DNA from: an uncultured bacterium
Lineage (GTDB): Bacteria; Bacillota_I; Bacilli_A; RFN20; CAG-826
DNA length: 64,000 nucleotides
Direction of reading: 5' to 3'
NCBI GenBank assembly: GCA_949291375.1
Contig: CASEVI010000001.1
Coordinates: forward strand, 132,980-196,979
Positions 46,134 to 62,057 of this stretch are shown piece after piece; the stretch's first letter is position 1, and each line of letters begins with the position of its first letter. The notes beneath the pieces are model-generated. The model was not told the origin of the DNA, searched no databases, and saw only the letters and a list, made by a program, of their open reading frames with translations. The position numbers and the translations under genes were made by a program.

Positions 46134-46168
46134 TTAAAAAAATAGATGGATTTACCATCTATTTTTTA
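46134..46168. terminator. Bidirectional terminator overlapping the DUF2804 stop
   Basis: AAAAATAGATGG, 5-base loop, CCATCTATTTTTT. Contains the last codons of the minus-strand DUF2804 gene. Confidence 0.85.
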
Positions 46169-47174
46169 CTTTTTCTAAAAAACCAACCGCATCTTTAAAA
46201 ACAATTTCTTTATTATCTTTAGTTTTTATTTTTCCGTTAAATTTACCAAATATTTGATGTTGGAAAGAAGCGATAAATAAAGCGTTAGTATCTTCATGAC
46301 GATCAACTATTGGGGTAAATAATAATTCAATATCTTTAGAAGATGATTCGACTTTGATTGGTCCTAAATAATCTTCTTTTCCGTTTTTCTTAGTAAAATA
46401 AAATTTAACATCATTAAGTTTATAGACATCTTTATTAACAAAAAGCATATTTTCACTAGCTTTAGATGTATCGCCAAATCCATAACCAAGATTAAAGCCT
46501 TTATAAGTATCATTATCTTTTATTGATAAAGAAGCCCAATACCAAGTATTTTTATAAGTCCAAACACCTCTTCCCCAATCTAAAACACCCATACCATCTT
46601 TAATTGAGGTCAATTTATCACCAAGTTTAAAGTAACCATTAGCTATTAAATTATTTATTTTTTGATTATAGTAAAAATGTTTTTTCTTTTTAAAAGGAGT
46701 AGCAATAACCATCGAATTAGAAGTTGTTGGTGAAAGAATAATATCAACATCTAAATCTTTATCGTTAGAAAAATTTTTAACGCTTGCTTTTATTTCTCTA
46801 TTATTTCCATTATTTAAAAAGGTAAGAGAAAAATCTTTTAAAGAATAAACACAATCACCTATTTCACTAGAAGAAGGTAAATTTAATTTTCCAAAAGTAA
46901 AAAATTTTATTTTTGATTTAGTTTTAAATCTTTTTTTTGCAAGATCAATTATAGAAATCGAAACAAGAGAAAATATCGAACAATCGGAAATTGTAAAACA
47001 TATTGCATAATCTTTAATAAATATAGCGTAATAATCCCGTTCTTTTATTCGTGATTTTAAACCAATAATATCTTTTCTTTTATATTTTTTTATTAATGAA
47101 GTAGCATAACCAGCTTCATATAAATTACCTTCGTAATCAAGTAAACGACCTTCTTTTAACTTATTTTGTTCCAT
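46152..47174 (-). CDS. DUF2804 family protein
   Basis: 340 residues, no signal or membrane segment. The pattern of the DUF2804 family is recognisable: LKEGRLLDYEGNLYEAGYAT at the N-terminus, then DYYAIFIKDYAICFTISD, and GVLDWGRGVWTYKNTWYWASL (about 197-217) and GFNLGYGFGD. Function of the family is unknown. It is translated 4 bases after a membrane-anchored Fe-ADH, so the two are probably one transcription unit. Confidence 0.85.
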   Translation of the reverse strand: MEQNKLKEGRLLDYEGNLYEAGYATSLIKKYKRKDIIGLKSRIKERDYYAIFIKDYAICFTISDCSIFSLVSISIIDLAKKRFKTKSKIKFFTFGKLNLPSSSEIGDCVYSLKDFSLTFLNNGNNREIKASVKNFSNDKDLDVDIILSPTTSNSMVIATPFKKKKHFYYNQKINNLIANGYFKLGDKLTSIKDGMGVLDWGRGVWTYKNTWYWASLSIKDNDTYKGFNLGYGFGDTSKASENMLFVNKDVYKLNDVKFYFTKKNGKEDYLGPIKVESSSKDIELLFTPIVDRHEDTNALFIASFQHQIFGKFNGKIKTKDNKEIVFKDAVGFLEKVKNRW

Positions 47175-47178
47175 AACT

Positions 47179-48798
47179 CTATTTATTTTTTATCTCCTTT
47201 TTATAATAACTATATAAATTTAAATACATATAAGAATACATCATTTTTGTATATATAATAGGTGTTCCATATAATGGTATTGCTTCTTTTTTAGCATGTT
47301 TTGCTAAAAAAGAAATATCATCTTTCTTAATTTCTTTTATATTAACATTATAGTGATATTTAATAGATAATTCGTCTAAATATGTAATTAAGGAAGTATT
47401 ATTTAATATATTTTTAGAAATATAATTCATCTTTTTTCTGGCTTTTTTATTATATAGATAAGTTTTTATAACTAAAGGTAAAATAATAGCGTTAGTTTTA
47501 GCATGCGCTAGATTATATTTATAAGATAAAGCATGCGATAAAGCATGAACATTACCTACTCCTTTAATTGAAAAAGCTAATCCGGCTAAAGAAGAAGCTT
47601 TAAATAAGTTCTTTTTTGAAGTCAAATCATTATTATTAATAGCATTATCTAAATTTTCATAGATAAGTTTTATAGCCTTTAAAGCATAATTATCATATTT
47701 TTTATATTTAAATACATTTAAATAACTTTCTAAAGCATGAGTTAAAGCATCCATAACACTATTAACTAATATTTCTTTTGACAAAGTTGAAATTAATTTA
47801 TCACTATAGAAAATATATTCAGGAATAATTTTAGTAGAAATAATTGAAGATTTTTTATCTTTAAAAGTAATAACTGAAGCATAAGACATCTCACTTCCAC
47901 TAGCGGGAGTAGAAGGAATAACTATAAAAGGTGGGAGATGATGCTTAACCTTAAATAAACCAGTAAATTTTTCTAAATCTTTAGAGTTATTTTTAATAAC
48001 TACTTCTAAAGCTTTAGCTAAATCAATTACTGAACCCCCGCCAATAGCTAAAATAGAATCGCAATTATTTTTTAAATAAGCTTTTTTAGCTTCTAAAACT
48101 ATTTCTTCACTTGGATTAGGAATTGATTTATCAAAAACAAAATAAGTAATATCTGACGATTTAAAAATATTGTCAATAAAAGTTAAATTTAAATGGTTAT
48201 ATTTAACAATAAATACTTTTTTTGCACCCATTTCTTTAAATTTTAATGGAATTTCTTCAATATTTTTTATTTCTTTAGGAATTTTATATTTAATAAAACG
48301 TAAGAAAAAACTTTCGAAGAAATTAACAATGCGCACAAAAAATTTTAAAAATAAGTTTTCTTTATCAATAAAGAAATTATGATCTAGTTTAGAAAAAATT
48401 ATTAAAGATGCAATTTTATCTTCTTTTAAATATTTTATTTTTATTTTTTTACCATTTTTAAGATAAATTATAAAAATAGAAGTAGTTAATAAAGAGCTAG
48501 GAATATTGTAAAGAGTAAAAATGTCTTTATAATTTATCTCAATTCTTTTATTAAATTTATAAACAATTATCTCTTTATCTTCAATTTTTATTAATGTTTT
48601 TGGCGTTAATAAAAATTGAACTATTTTATAAAAGAAAAATAATAAGAATAAACCTAAAATTATTTCAATTATTAAATTTAATAAAGAATATTCAATAGTT
48701 AAAGCATATAAATTTAATAAGAAAAAAACTAAAATAAGTAAAAAGAATAAAAGAGGAATAAATATTGCTATTTTGGCTTTTTTAAATTCGTTTTGCAT
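47179..48798 (-). CDS. Membrane-anchored iron-containing alcohol dehydrogenase
   Basis: 539 residues, about 150 longer than normal Fe-ADH. Two membrane helices (about 10-34 and 38-64) are followed by a beta-rich domain (about 68-135, IKIEDKEIIVYKFNKRIEIN...KNGKKIKIKYL) that resembles bacterial PH-like domains, then the dehydrogenase (about 160-539). The NAD(P) motif GGGSVIDLAKAL is at 253-264, and the metal ligands are intact: Asp350, His354, His422, His432. It should therefore be an active, membrane-tethered NAD(P)-dependent oxidoreductase. Substrate unknown. Confidence 0.85.
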   Translation of the reverse strand: MQNEFKKAKIAIFIPLLFFLLILVFFLLNLYALTIEYSLLNLIIEIILGLFLLFFFYKIVQFLLTPKTLIKIEDKEIIVYKFNKRIEINYKDIFTLYNIPSSLLTTSIFIIYLKNGKKIKIKYLKEDKIASLIIFSKLDHNFFIDKENLFLKFFVRIVNFFESFFLRFIKYKIPKEIKNIEEIPLKFKEMGAKKVFIVKYNHLNLTFIDNIFKSSDITYFVFDKSIPNPSEEIVLEAKKAYLKNNCDSILAIGGGSVIDLAKALEVVIKNNSKDLEKFTGLFKVKHHLPPFIVIPSTPASGSEMSYASVITFKDKKSSIISTKIIPEYIFYSDKLISTLSKEILVNSVMDALTHALESYLNVFKYKKYDNYALKAIKLIYENLDNAINNNDLTSKKNLFKASSLAGLAFSIKGVGNVHALSHALSYKYNLAHAKTNAIILPLVIKTYLYNKKARKKMNYISKNILNNTSLITYLDELSIKYHYNVNIKEIKKDDISFLAKHAKKEAIPLYGTPIIYTKMMYSYMYLNLYSYYKKEIKNK

Positions 48799-48912: not shown

Positions 48913-49842
48913 ATGAAAAAAATTTTTAAAGGTTTTATATTATTTATTTTATTATTTTTAACTTCTTGTAATTCTATACCGACTTTTGAGATAGATCCAT
49001 CTTTAGATTATTCTTCTTTTAATGAATATTATTTAGATAATATTAATAATTTTTATCTTCAAAAAGAAGAAACTTATGGAATTTATTTATATCGAGTTGA
49101 TTGCGAAAGTTGTAATGAGAATAAAAATGCTATTTTAAATCATTTAAATGAATATAAAAAAGGAAATAAGCATTTTAAAGTTTATATTTATAATACTATT
49201 AGATTAAAAGAAGAAAATGCAGTTTATACTTCTAATCCTTCTTTAAGTATTGAAGAAAGTAAAAATATAATGGTAAATAATAAAGTTTCTAGCTTAAAAG
49301 ATACAATTATTAATTTAGTTCCTTCTTTATATATCGTAAATAACGGTGTTATTTACGATTATATTGCTGGAGGAGTTGAAGTTGCTAAATATTTAATATC
49401 GACTAGTTTAGATAGTAGAAGTTATAGTGATATTAATGGGGCGATTTTAAATAATTTAGAAGATTTTTATACTTTGGATTATAAAAAATATTATATTTAT
49501 TTATATTTTGTTACATGTCCACACTGCTTTAAAGTTAAACCTAGTTTATTAAAATATTTAACTTCCTTAAAAAATAAAGAAGAACCTATTTTTGTATTTA
49601 ATATTTATTCATCTATAAGTGAAGAAGGAATAGAAATTAGAAATAAGTTTAAAATTCCTTATGACGTTAATAATGTTGATGATTTTAAAAATAAATATGT
49701 AAAAGAAAATATCGAGAATAAAGTTAATAAATTAGAGGACACTTATTTTAAATATGTTCCAGTATTATTTGAAATAAGTGATAATCACTATTCAGCTTGC
49801 TATATTGGTGAAGATGAAATTATAGAAAAAATATCTTTTTAA
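48913..49842 (+). CDS. Lipoprotein with two tandem thioredoxin-like domains
   Basis: 309 residues. Lipobox LTSC (Cys19). Two repeats follow: the first has IYLYRVDCESC (57-67, CxxC at 64/67) and a cis-Pro-type VPS at 136-138; the second has IYLYFVTCPHC (195-205, CPHC at 202/205) and VPV at 282-284. The spacing from CxxC to VP is about 70-77 in both. It should act on thiols or disulfides outside the membrane. No known family matched as a whole. It precedes the NAD cassette but with a gap of about 80 bases. Confidence 0.78.
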   Translation: MKKIFKGFILFILLFLTSCNSIPTFEIDPSLDYSSFNEYYLDNINNFYLQKEETYGIYLYRVDCESCNENKNAILNHLNEYKKGNKHFKVYIYNTIRLKEENAVYTSNPSLSIEESKNIMVNNKVSSLKDTIINLVPSLYIVNNGVIYDYIAGGVEVAKYLISTSLDSRSYSDINGAILNNLEDFYTLDYKKYYIYLYFVTCPHCFKVKPSLLKYLTSLKNKEEPIFVFNIYSSISEEGIEIRNKFKIPYDVNNVDDFKNKYVKENIENKVNKLEDTYFKYVPVLFEISDNHYSACYIGEDEIIEKISF

Positions 49843-49922
49843 GATTAAAATTATTACTTGGAAAAAGATAAATATTTTGAATATTTAATAATAGATCTAA
49901 AAAAGTATGAGGAAGAATGCTT

Positions 49923-51368
49923 ATGGAAAGTTTTAAAAGAAATATTTCTTTATTAATGGATTTTTATGAACTGACGATGTCAAATGGTTATTTTGTTGAA
50001 AATAAGAAAGATAAAATCGCTGTTTTTGATTTATTTTATCGAAATAATCCAGATGATGCAGCTTATTCAATATTTTGTGGTTTAGAAGATGCAATTAATT
50101 ATGTTAAAAATTTTCATTTTGATGAAAATGATATTAAATATTTAAGATCATTGAATATATTTAATGATAAATTTTTGAATTTCTTAGAAAATTTTAAATT
50201 TAAAGGTGATATATATTCTTTTGAGGAGGGTAGTATCATTTATCCTAACGAACCATTAATAACCATTGTTGGGCCATTAATTGATTGTCAATTATTAGAA
50301 ACTGCTCTTCTTGCAATTGTTAATCACGAAACTTTAATTGCCACAAAAGCAAATAGAATTGTTTTAGCTAGTAAGGGAAGGAATGTTTCTGATTTTGGAG
50401 CTAGAAGAGCTCATAATATAGATAGTGCCTTATATGGAGCAAAAGCCGCATATATTGGAGGTGTAAACTCTACCGCAACAACATTAGCTGGAGAACTTTT
50501 TAAAATACCAGTTAGTGGTACAATGGCTCATTCTTGGATAATGTCTTTTGATAATGAGTATGATGCATTTTTAAGTTATGCAAAGCTTTATCCTAATAAT
50601 TCGGTATTTTTAATTGATACATATGATGTCATCCATTCGGGATTAGCTAATGCAATTAAAGTTACTAAAGATTTTTTAATTCCGAATGGTTATAAATTAA
50701 AAGGTGTTCGTATTGATTCTGGAGATTTAGCATATTTATCAAAAAAATGTCGTAAAATATTAGATCAAAACGGCCTTATAGATACAAAAATTGTTGCTTC
50801 GAATTCTTTAGATGAATATAAGATCACTTCATTAATTGAGCAAGGCGCTCAAATTGATTCTTTCGGTGTAGGTGAAAATTTAATTACTTCAAAATCAAAT
50901 CCAGTATTTGGGGGAGTTTATAAACTTGTTGGAATTTATGAAAATGGCGTATTGATTCCGAAAATAAAGATCAGTGAAACTTTAGAGAAAATAACTAATC
51001 CATCTTTTAAAGATGTTTACCGTGTTTTTAACAAAGAAAATCGTGCCATTGCTGATTTATTAACTTTACATAATGAAAAGATTGATCAACCATTATGTGT
51101 AATCGATCCTTCAAAACCTTGGAAAAATATTATTTTTGAAGATTTTACAATAAAAAATATGCGCGTGAAAATTTTTGAAAAAGGAGAACTGATTTATAAA
51201 ATTCCAGATATTGAATCAAGACGTAATTATGTTAGATATCAAATTGAAAATTTAATTTGGGATGAAGAAAAAAGATTTGTAATGCCTCACATACATTATC
51301 TTGATTTTAGTAAAGATTTATATGATTTAAAGATTAGATTAATTAAAGATAATAAATATGACAAGTAA
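49923..51368 (+). CDS. pncB: Nicotinate phosphoribosyltransferase
   Basis: Makes nicotinate mononucleotide from nicotinate and PRPP. 481 residues from ATG 49923 (MESFKRNISLLMDFYELTMS), which has GAGGA at 9 bases; the ATG two codons upstream is too close to it. Family blocks: LMDFYELTMSNGYF (11-24), FGARRAHNIDSALYGAKAAYIGG with the phosphorylated His region (about 157-179), GTMAHSWIMS, and KGVRIDSGDLAYLSKK. First gene of a pncB-nadD-nadE cassette. Confidence 0.96.
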   Translation: MESFKRNISLLMDFYELTMSNGYFVENKKDKIAVFDLFYRNNPDDAAYSIFCGLEDAINYVKNFHFDENDIKYLRSLNIFNDKFLNFLENFKFKGDIYSFEEGSIIYPNEPLITIVGPLIDCQLLETALLAIVNHETLIATKANRIVLASKGRNVSDFGARRAHNIDSALYGAKAAYIGGVNSTATTLAGELFKIPVSGTMAHSWIMSFDNEYDAFLSYAKLYPNNSVFLIDTYDVIHSGLANAIKVTKDFLIPNGYKLKGVRIDSGDLAYLSKKCRKILDQNGLIDTKIVASNSLDEYKITSLIEQGAQIDSFGVGENLITSKSNPVFGGVYKLVGIYENGVLIPKIKISETLEKITNPSFKDVYRVFNKENRAIADLLTLHNEKIDQPLCVIDPSKPWKNIIFEDFTIKNMRVKIFEKGELIYKIPDIESRRNYVRYQIENLIWDEEKRFVMPHIHYLDFSKDLYDLKIRLIKDNKYDK

Positions 51369-51984
51369 TAAAATTGTTGTTTTAGGTGGAACTTTTAATC
51401 CTTTATCTAAAGCACATGGAGAATTGATTAACTATTTAGTAAATTATTTTGATGCCTTTAAAGGTATTCTTTTGCCAACAAATATAACTTTTTTTCATTC
51501 GTGGAAACATTTTAACGATAAAAGCATTCTCCCTACATCTTTAAGATTAGAAATATTAGAAGAATTCGTTAAAAGAAACAAGAACATCGAAATTGATTTA
51601 ATTGAAGTTGAAGGCAAAAGTCTAAAAACTTATACATCATTAATGTATTTAAAAGAAAAATATAAAGATAAAGAAATTTTATTTGCGTTTGGAAGTGAAA
51701 AAGTTGATGAGCTTGAAAGATGGTATAGAATAGAGGATATTCTTTCAAATTTTAAAATTATATTATTAAGGAGAAATCATGATAATTTTAATGATTTATT
51801 CAACAGTAATATTTTTTTAAAAAAATATAGAAGTTCATTTATCTTGGTTAACTCTTCTGAAGATCTACAAGATGTTTCTTCTACTAAAATAAGGGAATAT
51901 TTAAAAAATAAAAATGAAGAAGGTTTAAGAAAATTAACTTATAATTATGTTATAGATATATTAAAGAAAGAAGGGTATTTATGA
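51358..51984 (+). CDS. nadD: Nicotinate-nucleotide adenylyltransferase
   Basis: Adenylates nicotinate mononucleotide. 208 residues; the nucleotidyltransferase motif VLGGTFNPLSKAHGELI (8-24) and the C-terminal SSTKIREYL (about 175-183) are present. NAD context decides between nadD and other members of the fold. Overlaps pncB by 11 bases and nadE by 4 bases; ends in TGA. Confidence 0.92.
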   Translation: MTSNKIVVLGGTFNPLSKAHGELINYLVNYFDAFKGILLPTNITFFHSWKHFNDKSILPTSLRLEILEEFVKRNKNIEIDLIEVEGKSLKTYTSLMYLKEKYKDKEILFAFGSEKVDELERWYRIEDILSNFKIILLRRNHDNFNDLFNSNIFLKKYRSSFILVNSSEDLQDVSSTKIREYLKNKNEEGLRKLTYNYVIDILKKEGYL

Positions 51985-53879
51985 ACTCAAAATATGGATT
52001 TTATAAAATAGCTAGCGGTAATTTTATCACTCATGTGGGTGAAGTTAATAAGAATAAAGAAGAAATAATTTCTTTGATTAATGAAGCAAAAGAGAAAAAT
52101 ATAAATGTCTTATCTTTTAGTGAACTTTCTTTAATCGGCTATACAGCTCAGGATCTATTTTTTCATAAAGAATTAATTGATGATGAGTTTAACTCTTTCT
52201 TAGAAGTTTTAAAAATAGTCCCTTCTTCAATGATAGTGGTTATCGGAGGAATATTCTCATATCTCGATAAATTATATGATGTAGCTTTTATATTAGGAAA
52301 AGAAAAGATTTTAGGAATTGTTCCTAAGTCCTTTTTACCAAATTATAACGAATTTTATGAAAAAAGACGGTTTACATCAGGAAAAAATATTAAAAACACG
52401 AATGTCATAATAAACGATGAAGAAGTACCTTTTGGTAGCGACTTAATTTTTTCTTTAGGAGAATTAAAAATTGGAATTGAAATTTGTGAAGATTTATGGG
52501 TTATAGACCCTCCATCTAATTCTTTGTGTTTAAATGGTGCGAATTTGATTATAAATTTATCTGCTTCAAATGAATATATAGGAAAAAAAGAATATCGAAG
52601 AGATCTTGTGAAGCTTCAATCTGCAAAAAATTATTGCGCTTATTTATACACTTCATCTGGTTTTGGGGAATCAACTCAAGATTTAGTATTCTCAGGTCAT
52701 CAAATAATCTCAACGTGCGGATATATAGTTAGTGAAAAGTACGATGAAATTGGATTAAACCAAGGTATTATCGATTTAAATAAAATTACAAATGATCGAT
52801 TAAAATTTAAAAGTGCATTTGAATGCAAAAATGATAAAAACTATAGATATATAAATGTAGTTTCTCCTTGTAATATCGACTTATTACCTAATTTTGTAGA
52901 TTCCCACCCATTCATTTTAAGTAATGTTGAGGAAAGAAGAAAAAGATCCTTAGAAATTATTTCTTTACAAGCAAAAGGACTTGCCTCAAGACTATACAAT
53001 TCCCATTTTAAAGATGTTGTAATTGGTATAAGTGGAGGGTTAGATTCAACTTTAGCTTTACTCGTAATTGTTGAGGCATACAAGTTGCTTAATTTAGATT
53101 TTTCTAAAATCCATGTTTTAACGCTACCTGGTTTTGCGACTAGCAAAATAACTTTTAAAAATGTGAAAAATTTATTAAAAGCTTTAAATTTATCTTATGA
53201 AAAAATTAATATTAAAGAATTGGCAAAAAGACATTTATATGATTTAAAACATCCTCTAGATAAGTATGATGTAGCTTATGAAAATACTCAAGCTAGAATT
53301 AGAACTTTATATTTGATGGATTATGCAAATATGGTTAACGGACTTGTTATTGGAACAGGTGATTTAAGTGAACTTGCTTTAGGTTTTTCTACCTATAACG
53401 GAGATCATATGTCTATGTATGGAGTAAACGGAAGCGTTCCAAAAACATTAATTAAAACATTATTGACTGATTATAGTTATAAATATAAAAATTTAGAAAA
53501 AGTAATTAAAGATATAGTAGATACCCCAATTTCTCCAGAATTAATACCTTCAGCAAACAAAGATATTGCCCAAAAAACAGAACAAATCTTAGGGAAATAT
53601 GATTTGCATGATTTCTTCTTATATCATTTTATTAGAAATTCATTTACTAAAGAAAAAATATATCAATTAGCAAAAATTGCGTTTAAGGATATCGATGAAA
53701 AATATATAAAAGATACTTTAGAAATTTTTATGAAGAGATTTTTTACTCAACAATTTAAAAGAAGTTGTTTACCAGACGGGCCAAAAGTCGGTTCTGTCTC
53801 ACTTTCTCCAAGAGGTGATTTAAGGTTAGCTAGTGATTTAAATTATTTAAATTCTATTAATAAAGACATTAATGAGTGA
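51981..53879 (+). CDS. nadE: NAD+ synthase, glutamine-dependent
   Basis: Final step of NAD synthesis. 632 residues: an N-terminal nitrilase-type glutaminase with catalytic Glu in SFSELSLIGYTAQDLFF, Lys in PKSFLPNYNEFYEKRRF, and Cys in GIEICEDLW (about 163-171), then the synthase with PP-loop GISGGLDSTLAL (about 347-358). Complete, so glutamine can serve as nitrogen donor. Ends in TGA, one base before the stop of a convergent gene. Confidence 0.97.
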   Translation: MNSKYGFYKIASGNFITHVGEVNKNKEEIISLINEAKEKNINVLSFSELSLIGYTAQDLFFHKELIDDEFNSFLEVLKIVPSSMIVVIGGIFSYLDKLYDVAFILGKEKILGIVPKSFLPNYNEFYEKRRFTSGKNIKNTNVIINDEEVPFGSDLIFSLGELKIGIEICEDLWVIDPPSNSLCLNGANLIINLSASNEYIGKKEYRRDLVKLQSAKNYCAYLYTSSGFGESTQDLVFSGHQIISTCGYIVSEKYDEIGLNQGIIDLNKITNDRLKFKSAFECKNDKNYRYINVVSPCNIDLLPNFVDSHPFILSNVEERRKRSLEIISLQAKGLASRLYNSHFKDVVIGISGGLDSTLALLVIVEAYKLLNLDFSKIHVLTLPGFATSKITFKNVKNLLKALNLSYEKINIKELAKRHLYDLKHPLDKYDVAYENTQARIRTLYLMDYANMVNGLVIGTGDLSELALGFSTYNGDHMSMYGVNGSVPKTLIKTLLTDYSYKYKNLEKVIKDIVDTPISPELIPSANKDIAQKTEQILGKYDLHDFFLYHFIRNSFTKEKIYQLAKIAFKDIDEKYIKDTLEIFMKRFFTQQFKRSCLPDGPKVGSVSLSPRGDLRLASDLNYLNSINKDINE

Positions 53880-54968: not shown

Positions 54969-56267
54969 ATGAGAAAAAAAGAAAGAGAGAATTACATTTT
55001 TAATAAAAAATGTTTACTTATATTGCTCTATTTATATTATTTAAACGGAGTAAGTTATAGGAAAATTATTTTCAGATCTTTTGGATTTCATTTTGATCCA
55101 AAATGTAATTTCAAAGTAGTAGTTTATTCATCACATGAGCATATTCACAAATATGTTGTTCATATTTATTCTTCTATTTTTAAAGTTAATTTGGAAGAAA
55201 TTGATGTTATGGGTAATGTAAATTTCTTTAAAGTAAAATCTTTAAAAAATTATGATCCTTATATTCCTTTATCCAGCTTAAATATTTATTTTGACGAAGA
55301 CAATTTTTTAGCTGTTGGTTATATCGAAGGAAAAAAAATTAACTATACATTAAAGAAAAAGGACGAATCTTTATTTAAAGATGAACTTTTATATCGTTTA
55401 AATTTAGATAGACAAGAAGAGAATGAAGATTCGTTTATTCTTTATCTTTTAAAACTTTTTACCTATCAACTTGATACTGATCTCATTTTAGGGGCAGGAA
55501 TGAATGTAAATTACGGTGCAAAAGATTGGAAACATTTAATTTCGGCCTTAAATTCTACGTTTTATGAAGGAAATGAAGAAAGAATGGAAGAAATTTCTCA
55601 TTATGTTGGCAATGAACTTTTTGTTTCTTCTAAAATCTTAAAAACAAATGGATTTAATACATATAAAGAATTAAATAAAGAATTATATCTTTTTAAAGAT
55701 AATATTGATTTTGATGACCCTAATTCTACTTTATATGAATTAACTAATTTTATTGAACGACATAATAAAACGACGGTCATTACTTATAATTACGATACAA
55801 ATTTAGAATATATTCTAAAAAGAAGAGGTATTTTATATAACACGGTTTATGATGATAATGCTTTTTTAACCAAAGATGCAAAGGTCGATATTTATCATGT
55901 ACATGGATTACTCCCTTTTGATAAATATAATGAAGAAAAATTTACTGATTCTTTAATTTTTAATGAATCTGAATATTTTTATCTATATAACAATCCATAT
56001 TCATGGAATATTGCTAAGCAATTTCATGATTTTATGTTTAAAACATCAATATTTATTGGTATATCATTAACCGATCCAAATATGAAAAGATTATTGGAGC
56101 TAGCTTCTAATTTTTTAAAGTTTAATTTCATTTTCATGAAAAAAGAAAATAATTTTGATGAAAAAACGTTTAGAGACGTTACAAATTATTTTTTTTCATA
56201 TGATTTAATTACTATTTGGATTGATGATTATGATGAGATAGGTAGTTGGTTAAAAAAGATAGATTAA
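54969..56267 (+). CDS. SIR2-like domain protein
   Basis: 432 residues. Residues 1-165 are an unassigned domain. From about 170 the sequence follows the bacterial SIR2-like (SIR2_2) pattern: LILGAGMNVNYG with GAG at 175-177, TYNYD at 272-276 (Asn274), YHVHG at 309-313 (His312), and FIGISLTDPN at 362-371, ending with a WIDDYDEIGSWL segment. The Asn and His that catalyse NAD cleavage in ThsA/DSR-type proteins appear intact, so NAD hydrolysis is plausible. TAAAAT and AAGG lie before the ATG. It sits about 1 kb after the NAD synthesis cassette. Confidence 0.82.
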   Translation: MRKKERENYIFNKKCLLILLYLYYLNGVSYRKIIFRSFGFHFDPKCNFKVVVYSSHEHIHKYVVHIYSSIFKVNLEEIDVMGNVNFFKVKSLKNYDPYIPLSSLNIYFDEDNFLAVGYIEGKKINYTLKKKDESLFKDELLYRLNLDRQEENEDSFILYLLKLFTYQLDTDLILGAGMNVNYGAKDWKHLISALNSTFYEGNEERMEEISHYVGNELFVSSKILKTNGFNTYKELNKELYLFKDNIDFDDPNSTLYELTNFIERHNKTTVITYNYDTNLEYILKRRGILYNTVYDDNAFLTKDAKVDIYHVHGLLPFDKYNEEKFTDSLIFNESEYFYLYNNPYSWNIAKQFHDFMFKTSIFIGISLTDPNMKRLLELASNFLKFNFIFMKKENNFDEKTFRDVTNYFFSYDLITIWIDDYDEIGSWLKKID

Positions 56268-60152: not shown

Positions 60153-62057
60153 ATGGAAATTAGATTAAAAGGTATTACAAAGATTTTCCCAGGTAATCCA
60201 AAAAAACATATTAAAGATACCGTTGCTGTTGATAGTTTTGATTTAACAGTTCCAGATGGAGAACTCGTTGGTTTATTAGGCCCATCAGGTTGTGGCAAAT
60301 CAACAACTTTATATATGATTTCTGGTCTTCAAACTCCAACTTCTGGCGAAGTTTGGTTTGGCGAAGAAGAGGTTACTAATCTTTCGCCTGAAAAAAGAGG
60401 TATCGGTTTAGTTTTCCAAAACTATGCACTTTATCCTCACATGACTATTTATAAAAATGTCGAATTTCCTTTAGTAAACTTAAGAGTTGAAGTTCCATTA
60501 GTTACTTTCTTTGATTACCACATCGTTTATACATATGAAATGAGTGAAAAAGATCATTTAGAAGGTATTTTACGCTCCGTAAAAACATTGATGGGTAAAA
60601 TAGGTATTTCTAAAAAAGATTTTAAAGTTAATGGAAGTGTTTCTAACAATCTTTTGACTTTAATTATTGATTTAAAGAATGCAAATCCTAAAAATAAAGA
60701 TTTGTTTGTTGAAAATTTCCCAAGAATTATTAATTCTAAAAGTATGGAAATTAGGGAAAAACAAACTAGTGAAGCTTTATACGATGCTAAAATTCGTTAT
60801 GGTATTGAACTTCCTAACGAAAGAAAGATTGTTGTTGGTTCCTTTGTTTTTGAACTTAATGTTAAAAAAGAAGAAAGCGGAATTTTAGTTGCTGATCTTT
60901 TAGATTTTGTTAGAAGCAAAAAAATCAAAGTTACTTATTCACCAACATATGAAAATGCTGGCAAAACTATTCTTTTAGTTTCTTTAATTAATGTTCCTTA
61001 TAGTCATGCTGAAGAAGTATTAAAAGAAGTAGAGACTAAATTTAACTGTAAAGGTTCTATAAGAATTGATACTGTTAATACAAAAGAAGTTAAAAATAGA
61101 ATATATAAAGCACTTGGTAAATATTTTAAAAACATTAAAGAGATAAGTGCTTATGATGATAATGGCGAAACAAAAATATATTTTATAGTTAAAAAAGTAA
61201 AAGAAACTGAATTAAAAGAAATTCAAGAGTTAATTAAAAAAGAATTTACCGTTTTAAGTGAAGATGTTAAAACAAGTGTTGCTTTAAGTTATAGAAAATT
61301 AACTGCAAACGAAAGAAAAGATATAGTTTATGAAACTGCAAAACTTGTTCAAATTGAAGAATATTTAGAAAGAAAACCAGCACAGCTTTCTGGTGGGCAA
61401 CAACAAAGAGTTGCTATTGCTAGAGCTTTAGTTAAAAAACCAAAAGTTTTACTTTTAGATGAGCCTCTTTCTAATCTTGATGCTCGTTTAAGATTACAAA
61501 CAAGAGAAGAAATTAGAAGGATTCAAAAAAATACAGGAATTACAACAGTTTTCGTTACTCACGACCAAGAAGAAGCAATGTCAATATGTGATAAGATTGT
61601 TGTTATGAAAGCTGGTGTTTCTCAACAAATTGATTCACCTCAAAACGTTTTTAATAATCCTAAAAATTTATTCGTTGCTCAATTCTTAGGTAACCCACCT
61701 ATTAATGTTTTTAGTGGCAAAATAAAAGATAAAGGCATTTATATTGGAGATGATTTAATTTATAAAACAAGTAGTGATGTAAAAGATCAAGAAGTTTATG
61801 TTGCTATTAGACCTGAGGGATTTAAAGTAGCTTCTCAAAAAGGTGAGAATACATTAAATGCTAATGCTGAAATGGTGCAAGTTTTAGGTAGAGATATTTC
61901 AATCATTGCTCATAACCCAAATTGTTTACAACCATCTTTTAAAGTTATTATTCAAAATGAAAATACTAATTTTATTGGGGAAATTAATTTAGAGGTTGTC
62001 AAAAACAAAATGTTTGTTTTTGACATTAATACTGAGGAACGTATTTATATTGATTAA
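60153..62057 (+). CDS. Carbohydrate ABC importer ATPase (MsmK/UgpC type) with a ~270-residue insertion
   Basis: 634 residues. Walker A GPSGCGKSTT (43-52), Q-loop VFQNYALYPHMTIYKNVEFP (87-106), then an insertion of about 270 residues (about 110-383; nucleotides about 60480-61300), then the normal continuation: signature LSGGQQQ (412-418), Walker B LLLDEPLSNLDARLR and the H-loop VTHDQEEAMSICD, followed by a MalK-like regulatory OB-type C-terminus. Mycoplasma UgpC-type ATPases are also longer than normal at this place. All catalytic motifs are intact. AGGAGC-type ribosome site. Confidence 0.93.
   Translation: MEIRLKGITKIFPGNPKKHIKDTVAVDSFDLTVPDGELVGLLGPSGCGKSTTLYMISGLQTPTSGEVWFGEEEVTNLSPEKRGIGLVFQNYALYPHMTIYKNVEFPLVNLRVEVPLVTFFDYHIVYTYEMSEKDHLEGILRSVKTLMGKIGISKKDFKVNGSVSNNLLTLIIDLKNANPKNKDLFVENFPRIINSKSMEIREKQTSEALYDAKIRYGIELPNERKIVVGSFVFELNVKKEESGILVADLLDFVRSKKIKVTYSPTYENAGKTILLVSLINVPYSHAEEVLKEVETKFNCKGSIRIDTVNTKEVKNRIYKALGKYFKNIKEISAYDDNGETKIYFIVKKVKETELKEIQELIKKEFTVLSEDVKTSVALSYRKLTANERKDIVYETAKLVQIEEYLERKPAQLSGGQQQRVAIARALVKKPKVLLLDEPLSNLDARLRLQTREEIRRIQKNTGITTVFVTHDQEEAMSICDKIVVMKAGVSQQIDSPQNVFNNPKNLFVAQFLGNPPINVFSGKIKDKGIYIGDDLIYKTSSDVKDQEVYVAIRPEGFKVASQKGENTLNANAEMVQVLGRDISIIAHNPNCLQPSFKVIIQNENTNFIGEINLEVVKNKMFVFDINTEERIYID

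Follow-up and report, generated by a model that had tools for sequence, protein, structure and literature searches.

What would an iron-dependent alcohol dehydrogenase (Fe-ADH) act on if it were held at the membrane? The question is raised by one gene of the window (the whole stretch of 64,000 nucleotides analysed here), in which a small-genome bacterium has an alcohol dehydrogenase of the soluble type joined in a single chain to a hairpin of membrane helices and a PH-like domain. The Fe-ADH, the PH superfold and the transmembrane (TM) hairpin are all of known kinds; what is new, within the literature searched, is their order. An earlier note, made from the sequence alone, had named no described protein with this domain order, and we likewise found no description of a TM-PH-Fe-ADH architecture in the literature searched, which covered few subscription journals.

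Architecture of the fused protein

The gene (47179..48798, minus strand) is a single intact reading frame of 539 codons, running from ATG to stop with zero internal stops. Its 539 aa product combines TM hairpin, PH-like domain and Fe-ADH according to the reading frame, Pfam, hydropathy and AF2 modelling. The same in-frame fusion recurs in 11 of the 26 genomes of the genus, at 34-91% identity. Between near relatives, dN/dS ranges from 0.11 to 0.26 for the TM and PH parts and from 0.13 to 0.25 for the ADH part (0.29-0.58 for one more distant pair), which indicates purifying selection on the parts of the fused protein. Since the fusion is in frame in 11 genomes and dN/dS is well below 1, a frameshift or assembly artefact is ruled out, and with it the possibility, raised earlier, that the N-terminal part belongs to a separate gene.

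A search of the remaining order and of a sample of the class turned up no second lineage with a TM-PH-ADH fusion; the weaker TM-PH matches there lie mostly within short frames. A profile search of the genome collection with the fused alignment returned, among the matches listed, free-standing or YhhN-fused ADHs only and no TM-PH fusion. A search of viral contigs yielded distant ADHs only.

The first 64 residues contain two strongly hydrophobic blocks. Two transmembrane helices are located here (residues about 8-64; 48607..48777, minus strand), separated by a short loop. Hydropathy peaks at residues 10-28 and 42-60, and the AF2 model of the whole protein (alignment of ten fused homologues, mean pLDDT 84.7) has helices at 2-35 and 39-64, then strands at 70-122, a helix at 127-137, a linker helix at 149-166 and the ADH fold. 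The two helices that had been read from the sequence are borne out by both methods. A KK pair at residues 6-7, a K-rich stretch after the second helix and zero K or R in the loop (residues 34-44) support, by the positive-inside rule, the predicted placement of the Fe-ADH on the cytoplasmic side of the membrane, in agreement with the earlier proposal of a cytoplasm-facing site.

The PH-like domain (residues 70-137; 48388..48591, minus strand) consists of six strands and a C-terminal helix. It was silent in the VIA structure search with the full model because ADH chains fill the list, so the strand-rich part, residues 63-150, was folded separately with 22 homologues (pLDDT 77.9). The best VIA match of this model has a Z of 9.6 and an rmsd of 2.9 A over 78 residues, and the PDB rows listed for it are all PH-superfold chains (PH, PTB, FERM-F3, GRAM and bacterial PHb). 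Foldseek E-values were weak, the best being 1.5e-3, so the assignment, which agrees with the earlier reading, is a fold match and not a sequence match. Bacterial PH domains (3dcx, 3hsa; PHb family, PMC2817789) share the superfold at Z 8.5-8.6, whereas the window domain shares its chain with a TM hairpin and an enzyme and has no sequence family match above cut-off. Pfam reports zero families above cut-off for residues 1-150. Matches to DUF6585, SUR7 and 2TM were all sub-threshold and were not accepted as a family name; the best DUF6585 (PF20226) score, obtained with one homologue, was 24.8 bits against a cut-off of 27.7, and the window protein itself scored 12.6.

An amphipathic aromatic linker helix (residues 149-166; 48301..48354, minus strand) leads into the enzyme. 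Its hydrophobic moment is 0.52-0.64, equally high in 0.6-1.4% of shuffles. In the alignment it is the counterpart of the N-terminal extension of free-standing ADH homologues, an aromatic amphipathic segment such as MNIFKKAYCRIYQGVFRLLLPVLPYK. Because the free-standing members keep this segment, most of the closest homologues listed from the genome collection align from about residue 148 onwards.

The Fe-ADH fold covers residues 164-539 (47182..48309, minus strand), with the complete enzyme domain at about 164-532. Both of its Pfam halves are well above their gathering scores: PF00465 at residues 179-330 (E 4e-32, 111.5 bits vs 31.3) and PF25137, the ADH_Fe_C domain, at 345-508 (E 5e-31, 108.5 bits vs 27). 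The ADH part superposes on 3bfj with a VIA Z of 41 (rmsd 2.0 A over 360 residues). By alignment the iron ligands are D350, H354, H418 and H432, identical in all 110 Fe-ADH rows. The earlier list was right for D350, H354 and H432; H422, given there as the third ligand, is a conserved neighbouring histidine (107 of 110 rows), and its place belongs to H418. The 14-residue spacing of H418 and H432 equals that of H263 and H277 in FucO, which we take to be the iron-ligand pair of that enzyme. The GGGS nucleotide motif is intact at residues 253-256, and with four ligands kept the domain can be called active-looking, as the earlier note had it. Fold, ligands and motif are those of group III Fe-ADHs (FucO, DhaT and B. 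methanolicus MDH; PF00465/PF25137), which are themselves soluble, whereas in the window protein the enzyme is preceded by a membrane hairpin plus a PH-like domain, about 160 residues in all.

NCBIfam equivalogs (lactaldehyde reductase, ErcA, choline or 4-hydroxybutyrate dehydrogenase) all score far under cut-off. The best of them is ErcA (E 3e-58, 198 bits vs 550), and the FucO-type model reaches 182 against 523. ErcA is an ADH-like regulatory protein, and by analogy the window protein could be regulatory or structural, with the Fe-ADH domain sensing NADH or aldehyde and the PH domain signalling or oligomerising. We consider this very improbable: the ErcA score lies far below its cut-off, all catalytic residues are kept, and members of the same ADH clade adjoin an aldehyde dehydrogenase gene, as enzymes do.

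Gene neighbourhood in the genus

A DUF2804 gene (46152..47174, minus strand; Pfam E 9e-107) begins 4 bp past the ADH stop codon, with a Shine-Dalgarno-like AAGGAGA inside the end of the ADH gene. A terminator-like hairpin (46137..46167, no strand assigned; consensus scan only) follows DUF2804 and also the convergent ABC permease gene. This arrangement is consistent with a putative two-gene ADH-DUF2804 operon. DUF2804 is located behind every complete fused copy. We found no sequence match for DUF2804 in the PDB. One DUF2804 protein, PA3342 of P. aeruginosa, shares its induction by GliR with glycerolipid genes (PMC8151288).

TM-PH is a gene of its own (163-176 aa) in six other genomes of the genus (G001, G011, G012, G013, G016 and G041). 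In five of them it lies just upstream of DUF2804, overlapping or abutting it; in G012 the contig ends there. As far as the contigs extend, these loci are flanked by rex/adhE at one end and by a Nudix gene at the other. The ADH is free-standing in three other genomes of the genus. G007 and G019 carry glf, a free-standing ADH (406-410 aa), ABC genes and Nudix, with neither TM-PH nor DUF2804, and G009 and G014 have glf, the TM-PH-ADH fusion, DUF2804 and Nudix at the same locus. Since they occur in differing combinations across the genus, TM-PH, ADH and DUF2804 are separable units joined at one locus, and the window protein is, judging from these gene orders, a true fusion of two genes. The standalone TM-PH genes (loci L053, L054, L055, L056, L057 and L058) encode small membrane proteins with two TM helices and a PH-like domain, an unnamed family below all Pfam cut-offs.

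The recurrence of glf (UDP-galactopyranose mutase, GLF E 5e-73) suggests another role for the protein, namely synthesis or remodelling of an envelope glycolipid, in which the enzyme would oxidise or reduce, at the membrane, a sugar or glycerol unit linked to a lipid. The glf gene directly precedes the ADH gene in both free-standing (G007, G019) and fused (G009, G014) contexts, and in the latter two genomes it overlaps the fused gene by 8 bp. However, the locus lacks it both in the window genome and in most of the relatives with a fused gene, and the wider ADH clade has links to YhhN and ALDH3 instead of glf. We think such a role improbable.

Several other genes surround the locus in the window. 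A divergent gene (48913-49842, plus strand), which adjoins the fused ADH in most relatives, codes for a lipoprotein with two CxxC motifs (CESC and CPHC) and sub-threshold family matches only. It is followed by genes resembling NAD salvage and synthesis genes by sequence (49917-53879, plus strand; nicotinate phosphoribosyltransferase-, NadD- and NadE-like), whose position beside an NAD-dependent ADH locus is possibly a coincidence. A SIR2-like domain protein (54969-56267, plus strand; PF13289, E 2e-13) is kept near the locus in relatives. Farther along, a sugar-type ABC ATPase of 634 aa (60153-62057, plus strand) has an insertion of about 250 residues between the Q-loop and the LSGGQ signature; a relative in G015 is equally long (L081:8133-10034).

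Relatives of the dehydrogenase and a possible link to plasmalogens

In the ADH tree, the proteins of the genus cluster together (SH-aLRT 99) within a clade of 46 rows (99), which also takes in YhhN fusions and ADH+ALDH loci. The tree was made by a quick method without bootstrap, and branching inside the clade is only partly resolved; the tree does not separate one from two origins of the TM-PH fusion.

Chains of YhhN (PF07947), Fe-ADH and Aldedh, 1055-1091 aa long, are encoded in three Clostridia MAGs (L083:5329-8604, L084:5323-8574 and L086:3453-6617), and a fourth (L092:5338-7245) encodes a YhhN-FeADH protein of 635 aa. Pfam E-values range from 3e-24 to 8e-23 for YhhN and from 1e-91 to 5e-89 for Aldedh. 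L083 and L084 are close relatives, so the four fusions amount to about three separate observations. No description of a YhhN-FeADH-ALDH3 chain was found in the literature searched. A MarR-type gene is located upstream of the fusion in L086, and a MarR-like gene lies nearby in L083.

These proteins belong to the same ADH clade as the window protein and are likewise fused to a membrane part at the N-terminus, with the difference that their anchor is an 8-TM domain of the lysoplasmalogenase family and that ALDH3 is attached in three of the four. Membrane anchoring in the clade is seen in two unrelated forms, TM-PH and YhhN. The earlier view of iron-ADHs as normally soluble is too simple for a clade in which free-standing members have an aromatic amphipathic N-terminus and a separate branch is fused to YhhN.

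The ADH gene is located immediately upstream of the same ALDH gene in at least 17 Bacilli genomes, according to the listed coordinates, and the pair is also present in L020, L082, L088, L089 and L090. The partner belongs to the ALDH3 group; its best PDB matches are 6k0z (ALDH3A1) and 4qgk (human fatty aldehyde dehydrogenase, E 2e-116). The aldehyde-oxidising ALDH3A2 (4qgk) resembles this partner of the clade, not the window protein, and ALDH3 is absent from the window genome, where AdhE is the sole Aldedh protein.

Proteins of the YhhN/TMEM86 type act as lysoplasmalogenases, hydrolysing lysoplasmalogen to give a fatty aldehyde, and a published assay couples YhhN to ADH and NADH (PMC9052158). 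Eight residues were proposed to be catalytic in the TMEM86 lysoplasmalogenase, nearly all of them shown to be necessary for activity (PMC11994398); by alignment, all eight (K, G, D, H, G, S, D, Y) are kept in the fused YhhN domains. The YhhN-FeADH-ALDH3 and YhhN-FeADH fusions can be considered candidate self-contained enzymes leading from lysoplasmalogen to fatty acid or alcohol. The window genome has YhhN as a separate gene elsewhere, not as part of the fused chain (G000:C5:57342-57866; 60 bits vs cut-off 25.6), with all eight catalytic residues present; its product is the proposed upstream, fatty-aldehyde-giving step for the window ADH.

Co-occurrence data are mixed. A DUF2229 (PlsA-type) protein is found in seven of the eight genomes with a YhhN-fused or ALDH-paired ADH; as proteins other than PlsA also contain DUF2229, we take this as no more than supporting. 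No PlsA-type plasmalogen synthase match was found in the window genome or in any of the 11 fused-gene genomes, so an own source of plasmalogens is not evident there. Within the genus YhhN does not follow the ADH (9 of 14 genomes with ADH, 6 of 12 without; Fisher p 0.69), and most free-standing ADH-clade loci examined have no YhhN neighbour. YhhN was more frequent in genomes with TM-PH, fused or standalone (13 of 17 vs 2 of 9, p 0.014), an association that we dropped as evidence because it was found post hoc, among several tables tried, and with no correction for kinship. One ADH-clade gene is overlapped at its end by a gene for a membrane protein (L021:750-1457, minus strand) that matches YhhN at E 0.007; we treat this match as weak, since it is below cut-off and the catalytic His and Asp are lost.

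The lack of ALDH3 and of a PlsA-type gene in the window genome would also suit a fermentative short-chain ADH that recycles NADH and is tethered merely by fusion with TM-PH, its neighbour in the operon, without any lipid substrate. In fold and motif the window ADH matches ordinary group III enzymes (FucO, propanediol and methanol dehydrogenases), and the locus adjoins rex and adhE in several relatives. Yet the genome already has AdhE, the constant partner of the fused form is DUF2804, and the partners of the clade are YhhN and ALDH3, not fermentation genes; moreover, free-standing members too have the aromatic amphipathic segment ahead of the ADH. We regard the fermentative role as rather unlikely.

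Proposed role as a membrane-tethered enzyme

We give about an even chance to the window protein being a membrane-tethered, iron-dependent, NAD(P)-linked fatty aldehyde/alcohol oxidoreductase, the substrate and direction being our inference. Fatty aldehydes from membrane lipids are the likeliest substrate because relatives of the same clade are fused to a YhhN domain and a fatty-aldehyde-type dehydrogenase. The lipid-derived carbonyl or alcohol substrate suggested earlier thus gains indirect support from the fusions and neighbours of the clade, while its identity is still inferred. As the YhhN fusions sit in another branch, 32-34% identical to the window ADH, the substrate of the latter may have changed.

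The TM hairpin would fix the enzyme to the cytoplasmic leaflet, and the PH-like domain together with the aromatic amphipathic linker helix may hold the active site near the bilayer. A hydrophobic aldehyde, e.g., from lysoplasmalogen cleavage by a YhhN-type enzyme, would move out of the membrane to reach the Fe/NADH site. The aldehyde could alternatively come from the host, the diet, other bacteria or another lipid reaction. Hydride transfer by the Fe-ADH would reduce the aldehyde to fatty alcohol, or the reverse. DUF2804, encoded alongside, probably handles the same lipid.

For the clade as a whole we tentatively propose, with somewhat less than even confidence, an Fe-ADH family dedicated to fatty aldehydes of plasmalogen turnover, membrane-fused at least twice independently, with the Clostridia chain uniting lysoplasmalogenase, ADH and ALDH.

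The enzymes that make plasmalogens in anaerobic bacteria are known (PlsA/PlsR). In a recent review of bacterial plasmalogens (PMC9702350), the words degradation, turnover and lysoplasmalogenase do not occur. The fusions found here are concrete, expressible candidates for the fate of the released plasmalogen aldehydes, the YhhN-FeADH-ALDH3 chain being the more striking by-product of the analysis. To these the window protein adds an anchored form from Bacilli with tiny genomes, and it offers a hint to the function of DUF2804 and of the 2TM-PH family, which passes no Pfam cut-off. If the proposal is true, a dedicated Fe-ADH family would fill in the enzyme set that has been missing for what becomes of plasmalogen aldehydes in bacteria.
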